This document shows, piece by piece, positions 58,245-61,213 of a stretch of 64,000 nucleotides of DNA. The stretch's first letter is position 1, and each line of letters opens with the position of its first letter. Made by a program: the position numbers and the translations under genes. The notes beneath the pieces are model-generated. The model made no database searches, was not told the origin of the DNA, and saw only the letters and a program-made list of their open reading frames with translations. The stretch comes from Candidatus Palibaumannia cicadellinicola (lineage in GTDB: Bacteria; Pseudomonadota; Gammaproteobacteria; Enterobacterales; Enterobacteriaceae): assembly GCF_001269425.1 (NCBI RefSeq), contig NZ_CP011787.1, positions 558,001 through 622,000 on the forward strand, given 5' to 3'.

Positions 58245-58874
58245 TTATATTTTGCGCTCCTTCGCTACAAGGTATATTTCTCTAGAACTAGAACTGGAAG
58301 CATATGGTTTAAAAATTTTTACTTGATTAAATAAAGATAGTATTTTTAGCATCAAATCATCAAACCCCTCTCCATGAAATACTTTTACTATAAAACTTCC
58401 ACCTGGAATCAAAATATCTTGACACATTTGTAATGCTCGTTCTACTAAATAAATAGATTTTGGAATATCTACTGCTGGCAAACCACTAATATTAGGTGCA
58501 ATATCTGACAAAATTACTTGAACTTTTTTATTTCCAACAACACTTTTAATAGTGTTGAATACTTCATTATTGCAGAAGTCCCCCTGTACAAAATTGACCC
58601 CTAATAACGGATGCATCGGAAGAATATCACAGGCAATAATACGCCCTTTACTACCAATTTTAGTAGATACATATTGTGACCAACTACCAGGTGCTGCACC
58701 AAGATCTACTACAGTTATGCAAGAATATAATATTTTGTTAATTTTTTTGTATTTCATTAAGTTTAAACCAAGCACGAGAACGTAGTTTATTTTTTTTGCT
58801 TGTACAACGTATTGATCTTTAAAATGTGCTTGCAGCCAGATTTTTGAATTAGCTGACTTTTTTTTTACAACCAT
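58245..58874 (-). CDS. rlmE: 23S rRNA 2'-O-methyltransferase RlmE with two compensating frameshifts
   Basis: Methylates U2552 in the A loop of 23S rRNA, a late 50S assembly step. From ATG 58874 the frame has 209 residues, exactly as E. coli. Residues about 29-45 do not match the family: they read INYVLVLGLNLMKYKK. In the other frame the same DNA gives LRSRAWFKLNEIQ, matching E. coli GLRSRAWFKLDEIQ. One base more in the A8 run (58790-58797, T on plus) and one base less in the A7 run (58742-58748) restores the family sequence. The lost piece holds K38, the first of the KDKE catalytic residues; D, K and E are kept (LSDIAPN, FIVKVFHGEGF, SSREIYLV), as is DLGAAPGSWSQY. Upstream of ftsH as in E. 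coli. Confidence 0.93.
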   Translation of the reverse strand: MVVKKKSANSKIWLQAHFKDQYVVQAKKINYVLVLGLNLMKYKKINKILYSCITVVDLGAAPGSWSQYVSTKIGSKGRIIACDILPMHPLLGVNFVQGDFCNNEVFNTIKSVVGNKKVQVILSDIAPNISGLPAVDIPKSIYLVERALQMCQDILIPGGSFIVKVFHGEGFDDLMLKILSLFNQVKIFKPYASSSSSREIYLVAKERKI

Positions 58875-59515: not shown

Positions 59516-59722
59516 AATTAATTATACCTTTACTTTAATTGTAACTCTACTGCTGTAGTAGCTGCTATACTAACGTAATACTATTTTATTGAAAGACTGA
59601 AATACTGTTGGAGTTTGTTGTTACGATTGATTTTATTCCTATAATTAAATTATAATGTACTAGTAACTAGTAGTATTACTATAAACACTGTACACAGTGT
59701 TTATTCATTCACTATAATAATT

Positions 59723-61120
59723 ATGCGTGTTTTAAAAATTATCAAATGCTGCTGTACCAGCTTTTTTATTATATATGCTCAAGCTGCTGTATCTGTGGTA
59801 AACTACACATAATATTTACCAAAAGGTACTAAACTTGCTTTAATTGTGCAAAAATTAGGGGCACAGCAGCCAACTATTGATTAAAATAGTAAGCAGCTAG
59901 CGCTACCAGCTAGTACTATTAAACTATTAACAGCGCTAGCAGCACTACTACAACTAGGACCAAACTATCGATTTAATACTATTTTTGAAGCAAATTTTCC
60001 AGTATCATAAGGAGTATTAAACAGTAATATTATTGCACGCTTTAGCGGTGATCCTACTTTTACTCGTAAACGACTACGTACTATGGTAGCAGCACTACGA
60101 AAACATGGTATAAAAATTATTACTGGTAACCTAATAATTGATACATCGGTATTTGCAATTAATGATAAAGCCCCTGGTTGGCTATGGAATGATTGAATCC
60201 AATGTTTCAGCACTGCTCCAGGAGCAGCTATCATCGATAGACACTGTGTTTCTATTTCTCTATACAGCGGTACTGTAGGTGAAAGAACTTTTATTAGTCT
60301 TTCTTCTTACTATCATGTAAAAATAAAAAAGTACGTACTATTAATAATGAAGCAAAAAATTACTGTGAGCTTGATATTATACCAGGTGAGCTAAATATTT
60401 TTACTTTTAACGGTTGTATTAATCAGCGTTAAGATCCTATCTTACTTAGTTTTGCGTTTTGCAGTACAAGATAGCGCGAGCTATGTTGGTTCGATTTTAA
60501 AGGAAGAACTAAAGCAGGCTAATATACAACTCAATGGTACTATTAAACTAAAAAATAAACCTCCTAATACTCATAAACCTTGTAAGGTTCTAGCGCAATC
60601 TTTTTCAGCCCCATTACATGATTTATTACATCTTATGTTCAAAACATCAGATAATTTGATTGCCGATACTATATTTCGTATTATTTTTCATTAATACGTT
60701 AAAGTACCTGGAAGCTGGCGTACTGGATCTGACGCAGTACGTAAAATATTACATCAAAAAGCTAGCATTGATCTCGATAATACAATTCAGGTTGATGGAT
60801 ATGGTTTATCACGCTTAAATTTAATTTCTCCATCTACTATGATGAAAGTTCTGCAATATATTGGTAATAATGATCAAAAACTAGATTTCATATCTATGTT
60901 ACATTTATCAGGTTATGATGGTACACTAATGTATCGTTATGGTCTACATTAAGCAGGAGTAGATGGTAAATTATCAGCTAAAACTGGATCTTTACAATGA
61001 GTTTATAATCTAGCTGGTTTTCTTACTACTTATAGTGGTAATCGTCTAGTCTTTGTCCAGTATATATCTAGCTATACAGCTTCGCTGCTACCAAATAAGC
61101 ATACTAATAAGTATATTTAA
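59723..61120 (+). pseudogene. dacB: dacB pseudogene (penicillin-binding protein 4)
   Basis: Remnant of the D-alanyl-D-alanine carboxypeptidase/endopeptidase. Similarity to E. coli DacB runs along the full length and in order: ALPASTIKLLTALAAL (S and K of SXXK kept), DKAPGWLWND, FAVQDSASYVGSILKEELKQA, SDNLIADTIFR, GSDAVRKIL, DGYGLSRLNLI and AKTGSLQ. It is interrupted by stops at 59882, 60008, 60194, 60692, 60950 and 60998, and by at least two frame changes, one between 60320 and 60350 and one near 60440-60460. The three active-site motifs survive, so decay is recent. An 80-codon open piece at 60452-60694 is only a fragment of it. Located between greA and obgE, as in E. coli. Confidence 0.95.
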
Positions 61121-61213
61121 TTAATTAATTTTTAATATAGGCTATATAAAGATTTATATAAAAATAACTAAATTAGTTTAATTACACACTTTAAGTATTA
61201 ATTTAAAAAATCT

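Follow-up and report, generated by a model that had tools for sequence, protein, structure and literature searches.

The rlmE locus

The window analysed here is a stretch of 64,000 nucleotides from Candidatus Palibaumannia cicadellinicola (NCBI RefSeq assembly GCF_001269425.1, contig NZ_CP011787.1, positions 558,001 to 622,000 of the forward strand), and positions are those of the window unless marked otherwise. Within it, rlmE runs from an ATG at 58874 to a stop at 58245, with the listed open reading frame (ORF) beginning at an upstream TTG (58883). The ORF has the right length for its product; about 17 of its codons, enclosed by two runs of adenines, are nonetheless misread out of frame (Table 1). 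Over this stretch the open frame as deposited gives INYVLVLGLNLMKYKKI, and the shifted frame over the same bases gives NKLRSRAWFKLNEIQKN. The corresponding segment of the proteins from two sister genomes, designated G001 and G003, reads KGLRSRAWFKLDEIQKK and KGLRSRAWFKLDQIQKS, respectively, and in both sisters rlmE occupies one single frame. The codon for the catalytic lysine K38 is found in the hidden frame only, and the deposited protein therefore lacks this residue.

Table 1. Features of the rlmE neighbourhood in window coordinates.
Feature	Position	Strand	Remarks
rlmE (ftsJ/rrmJ), 23S rRNA U2552 2'-O-methyltransferase	58245..58874	−	209 codons as deposited; NF008390 273.8 bits
Run 1, A8	58790..58797	−	One base less than the sisters' frame; RlmE frame left here
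Inter-run stretch, out of frame	58749..58789	−	Hidden frame = LRSRAWFKLNEIQ
Catalytic lysine K38 codon	58762..58764	−	Hidden frame only; role of K38 as described in PMC11221467
Run 2, A7	58742..58748	−	One extra base relative to the sisters' frame; RlmE frame regained here
dacB pseudogene, between obgE and greA	59720..61171	+	484 codons collinear in one frame, no net frameshift

Joining the frames at the two runs yields a protein that aligns without gaps with those of G001 and G003 (209 residues each), raising the number of identities from 124 to 135 with G001 (+11) and from 116 to 126 with G003 (+10). The original prediction, made from the letters of this DNA, had placed the runs at exactly these positions and lengths, had seen an RlmE-like reading with K38, which it assigned to a K-D-K-E tetrad, hidden behind an unlike open frame, and had located both switch points on the homopolymers; the runs, the hidden reading with K38 and the switch points are borne out by the sequence and its comparison with the two sisters, together with the gapless alignment at 209 residues.

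The deposited protein scores above the cut-off of 269 for the NCBIfam equivalog NF008390, and the sister proteins reach 343.2 and 332.7 bits. It falls below the cut-off of a second NCBIfam equivalog, TIGR00438 (217.6 bits against 300.15), which is also missed by the intact sister proteins (268.6 and 256.8 bits) and hence does not discriminate here.

The dacB pseudogene of the same neighbourhood contains 10 internal stops (8 TAA and 2 TGA), at positions where the sisters hold differing residues, and is identical to its G001 counterpart at 300 of 476 aligned residues. Many stops in a frame that has been kept make an odd combination, of which frame adjustment by the curators of the genome may be the cause.

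Genomes compared

The genome under study consists of a 632,672 bp chromosome and a 3,465 bp contig. The published genome of Baumannia cicadellinicola B-GSS, from the green sharpshooter Draeculacephala minerva, is described as a chromosome of 632,672 bp with a 3.5 kb plasmid (PMC4758232). The genus is represented by four genomes including this one. Two of the sisters, G001 (759,425 bp) and G003 (686,194 bp), carry rlmE; in the third, G002 (190 contigs), a match to rlmE is absent and matches to FtsH are weak and partial only, and this assembly is without the rlmE region. A protein scan of the contig collection (genome_contigs) found no relative.

Across the family, rlmE was found in 97 of the 99 genomes searched. 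One genome (G031) was left out, being 49% complete with its rlmE match in three pieces. In another (G051), the first match begins at residue 49; with the G003 protein as query, this gene reads in one frame from residue 26. Among the papers that literature searches on Baumannia and on RlmE listed, none was recognised as treating the rlmE gene of Baumannia.

Conservation of the hidden segment

Between the runs, one of the 39 bases of the hidden segment is different in G001, whereas 12,391 of the 28,017 fourfold sites in 256 shared genes (44%) differ between the same two genomes. Were all bases to differ as often as fourfold sites do, the probability of at most one difference in 39 would be 4.2e-9; in-frame 39-base windows of such similarity number 482 of 78,632. 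With so few differences despite this level of divergence, the segment is not an old untranslated relic, and an old loss by drift can be rejected, the flanking ORF being open as well. This is in keeping with the earlier argument that a hidden frame so strongly conserved makes loss the less favoured reading. The single change specific to this genome turns D into N when read in the hidden frame and leaves the open-frame peptide unchanged; the scrambled peptide is thus merely a shifted reading of the sister sequence.

These data bear directly on the idea that rlmE is a decaying pseudogene whose frame has stayed open by chance. The genome has lost many genes, according to its published description (PMC4758232), and the dacB pseudogene with its internal stops lies three genes from rlmE; on the other hand, the RlmE frame continues free of stops through around 190 of the 209 codons, and the hidden segment has hardly changed. 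Decay of this kind is hardly conceivable as an explanation.

Homopolymer shifts beyond rlmE

A shifted-frame comparison covered 314,600 of the 632,672 chromosome bases against syntenic stretches of both sisters. Reciprocal ORF pairs, 603 between this genome and G001 and 524 between this genome and G003, were scanned for segments matching better once the frame is shifted, and reference genes were also compared by tblastn in half-chromosome samples. In the scan, rlmE scored 77 against G001 and 74 against G003, a signal above chance. The other scores of at least 30 against G001 were 49 (smpB of this genome, at a homopolymer), 39 (a shift in G001 rplA seen from this genome), and 31 (a shift in G001 with no long run). 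Those against G003 were 79 (again smpB of this genome), 53 (an antisense ORF over a shift in a metallo-hydrolase gene of this genome), and 35 and 34 (both ORF starts). Several scores of at least 30 between G001 and G003 were not counted, as they belong to small ORFs read as ribosomal RNA or non-coding. An internal segment flanked on both sides by the right frame was seen in the scan for rlmE alone, and this is the sole internal homopolymer-bounded pair recognised across the compared stretches of the three genomes.

Three further single homopolymer shifts, all near the 3' ends of genes, were recognised in the half of the chromosome compared, and all three lie outside the window. In smpB, a shift at an A8 run (C1:545857-545898) removes the C-terminal tail held by both sisters, and is possibly another 454 error. 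In crp, a single shift lies at an A6 run close to the 3' end (near C1:524066), and in the metallo-hydrolase gene at a T8 run, likewise close to the 3' end (near C1:368648). These three genes were named from sequence by eye, without a family search. Their ORFs remain long, and such shifts could therefore be missed by a curator; shifts near gene ends could also be real tolerated mutations, which would have the same appearance. In G001, rplA is shifted relative to both this genome and G003 at an A6 run near the C-terminus (G001:C1:560907-560945).

The tblastn comparison used 330 reference genes for this genome (275 with a match) and gave three places, one of which, near C1:629153, was set aside because it has no run longer than five and looks like decay; the smpB shift is not among these three and came from the shifted-frame scan. 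It gave six places in G001 from 262 reference genes (260 with a match), where rplA is the only one on a run and the other five, read as starts of genes, adjacent ORFs or a run-less shift, were set aside. G003 gave four places from 280 reference genes (263 with a match), one of them near a T9 run; the remainder were read as gene ends or starts and likewise set aside. On these half-chromosome samples, the tally of homopolymer shifts is rlmE plus the three near gene ends in this genome, one (rplA) in G001, and one candidate (near the T9 run) in G003, a modest contrast between this genome and its sisters.

The rlmE run itself was surveyed more widely, in the 59 genome_contigs records that have eight or more adenines just before the conserved LRSRAWFK-type codons. 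An automatic frame check was passed by 53 of the records; inspection by eye placed three of the six that it flagged in frame, one of these (L123) having just a short upstream part. In the remaining three of the 59 the frame is lost at this run, namely in Enterobacteriaceae bacterium PSmelAO1 (A11), Tatumella morbirosei (A8), and the secondary endosymbiont of Ctenarytaina eucalypti (A10). Where the run comprises at least 10 adenines, rlmE is out of frame in two of six. On this survey, the adenine run before LRSRAWFK is a recurrent indel spot in assemblies.

Origin of the frame switch

According to its published description, the B-GSS genome was sequenced by 454 GS FLX at an average coverage of 8.7×, with gaps closed by PCR and Sanger sequencing; 68 out-of-frame genes were adjusted into frame by hand, homopolymer errors being blamed, and the Sanger checks that the description states concern gaps and larger indels only (PMC4758232). 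The method is thus an error-prone one, and both deviations in rlmE lie on homopolymers and are absent from both sisters that have the gene. It is very likely that the scrambled stretch is an artefact of sequence assembly, a homopolymer error in a 454 genome; as such it is very probably no real feature, and rlmE in the organism itself is most likely ordinary. The high confidence placed in this reading derives from the sequencing method, the sister genomes, and the conservation of the segment.

The history of the two runs can be reconstructed tentatively. At least one of the two neighbouring poly(A) runs would have been miscalled in the 8.7× assembly. The errors may have struck both runs, in opposite directions; the likelier route, in our view, is that one run was miscalled and the in-frame adjustment by the curators was misplaced onto the other. 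Both routes would leave an ORF of the right length with its short internal stretch out of frame. If run 1 deviated alone, a stop would follow at codon 53; of the other homopolymers ahead of that stop, run 2 is the longest, and a balancing adjustment there would produce the deposited sequence. A net-zero pair (−1, +1) is in frame overall and hence escapes a check for out-of-frame genes, and the pair in rlmE could itself come from frame adjustment.

A gene hit by two independent errors yet still open should turn up about 0.1 times per genome (0.092, 0.098, and 0.099 with run thresholds of 5, 6, and 7), as calculated from the 68 genes affected and the A/T runs of 272 genes in the sampled half of this genome. 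A plain Poisson count gives 4.2 genes with exactly two errors; it ignores stop codons and overstates the survivors. Two independent 454 errors are accordingly disfavoured as the sole route. Since chance pairs are so weak a source, while a misplaced adjustment had 68 opportunities, one miscall followed by a misplaced adjustment is preferred. It counts against the artefact that this likelier route depends on a misplaced adjustment that we infer.

Mutation or slippage as alternatives

A different origin would be a recent pair of real compensating indels, the first disabling rlmE and the second restoring its frame, to leave a scrambled RlmE that lacks K38 and probably has no methyltransferase activity. 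The ORF is otherwise open, and indels in poly(A) are described as common in such genomes (PMC3017870). The RlmE of this genome is also relatively diverged, ranking 17th lowest of 256 against G001 and 16th of 256 against G003 with the scrambled segment counted, while the pair formed by G001 and G003 ranks 76th of 256; such divergence tells against an ordinary rlmE and would fit relaxed constraint too. The few changes in the segment, although not those of an old relic, would be compatible with a real event late on the branch leading to this genome, within about its last 40% by a rough hand estimate. In Escherichia coli, however, the K38A form of RlmE is reported to be catalytically inert, to fail to rescue the deletion, and to inhibit growth when expressed (PMC11221467), which would make it odd to keep the rest of the protein. 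Moreover, no internal pair of such a kind was recognised in the compared stretches of G001 or G003, and the 454 method is a simpler source of the pair. Real compensating indels are therefore decidedly unlikely. Taking the DNA as deposited at face value, B-GSS would have recently fixed a compensating double frameshift that removes the catalytic RlmE lysine and spares the rest of the protein, and RlmE would persist either through a function in ribosome assembly that needs no catalysis or with a supplement from slippage at an adenine run that is repeatedly shifted in rlmE genes; this reading is quite improbable.

Slippage would act instead on expression: RNA polymerase or the ribosome would slip one base at run 1 and reverse the slip at run 2, yielding some full RlmE. 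Run 1 includes the in-frame sequence A AAA AAA, which belongs to a recognised type of slippery heptamer. Conservation of the hidden frame also fits, and another symbiont has a single rlmE shift at the same run (A10). In the aphid and ant symbionts Buchnera and Blochmannia, single poly(A) shifts on long runs are reported to be rescued by slippage in 12–50% of transcripts (PMC5009743, PMC3017870). For rlmE, by contrast, two opposite slips would be needed in one message, at a mere A8 and A7. In Buchnera RNA, homopolymers are reported to account for 151 of 157 insertions, against 16 of 57 deletions, with rates climbing exponentially with run length (PMC5574713). A shift kept in related lineages was not found, rlmE being unshifted in both sisters that have it and G002 being without the region. 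Double slippage is thus highly unlikely.

The original prediction had named slippage, a fixed compensating pair, and error as candidates. Error, strongly backed by the 454 coverage and the hand-adjusted genes, has far more support than the others; slippage has two opposite slips to account for and no positive evidence, and the compensating pair is less likely than error.

Implications for the deposited proteome

As a consequence of the probable artefact, the catalytic lysine of RlmE is probably only seemingly lost in the deposited B-GSS proteome, a modest problem of the record. Checks for an open frame are blind to net-zero error pairs, which shifted-frame comparison with sister genomes can detect. 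Should the sequence be real, it would represent a natural catalytic knock-out of RlmE in which the remainder of the protein is retained.

Comparison with known systems

The deposited gene resembles rlmE of other Enterobacterales in encoding 209 amino acids, in passing NF008390, in lying directly upstream of ftsH, and in carrying the AdoMet-site motif DLGAAPG in frame. It departs from them in that the K38 segment is out of frame as deposited and in an NF008390 score 60–70 bits under those of the sisters.

Compared with the slippage-corrected shifts of Buchnera and Blochmannia, the locus shares the setting of an AT-rich insect symbiont, a poly(A) shift, and a conserved hidden frame. Those shifts are, however, described as single, on longer runs, and in some cases common to several species (PMC3017870), whereas rlmE has two short runs with opposite signs and neither sister is shifted.

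The likeness to 454 homopolymer errors in finished genomes lies in both switch points falling exactly on adenine runs, and in a platform, a low coverage, and a set of hand-adjusted genes that are all stated for this genome. What sets rlmE apart from such errors is that its two deviations, 41 bases apart, are of opposite sign, so that the ORF looks intact.
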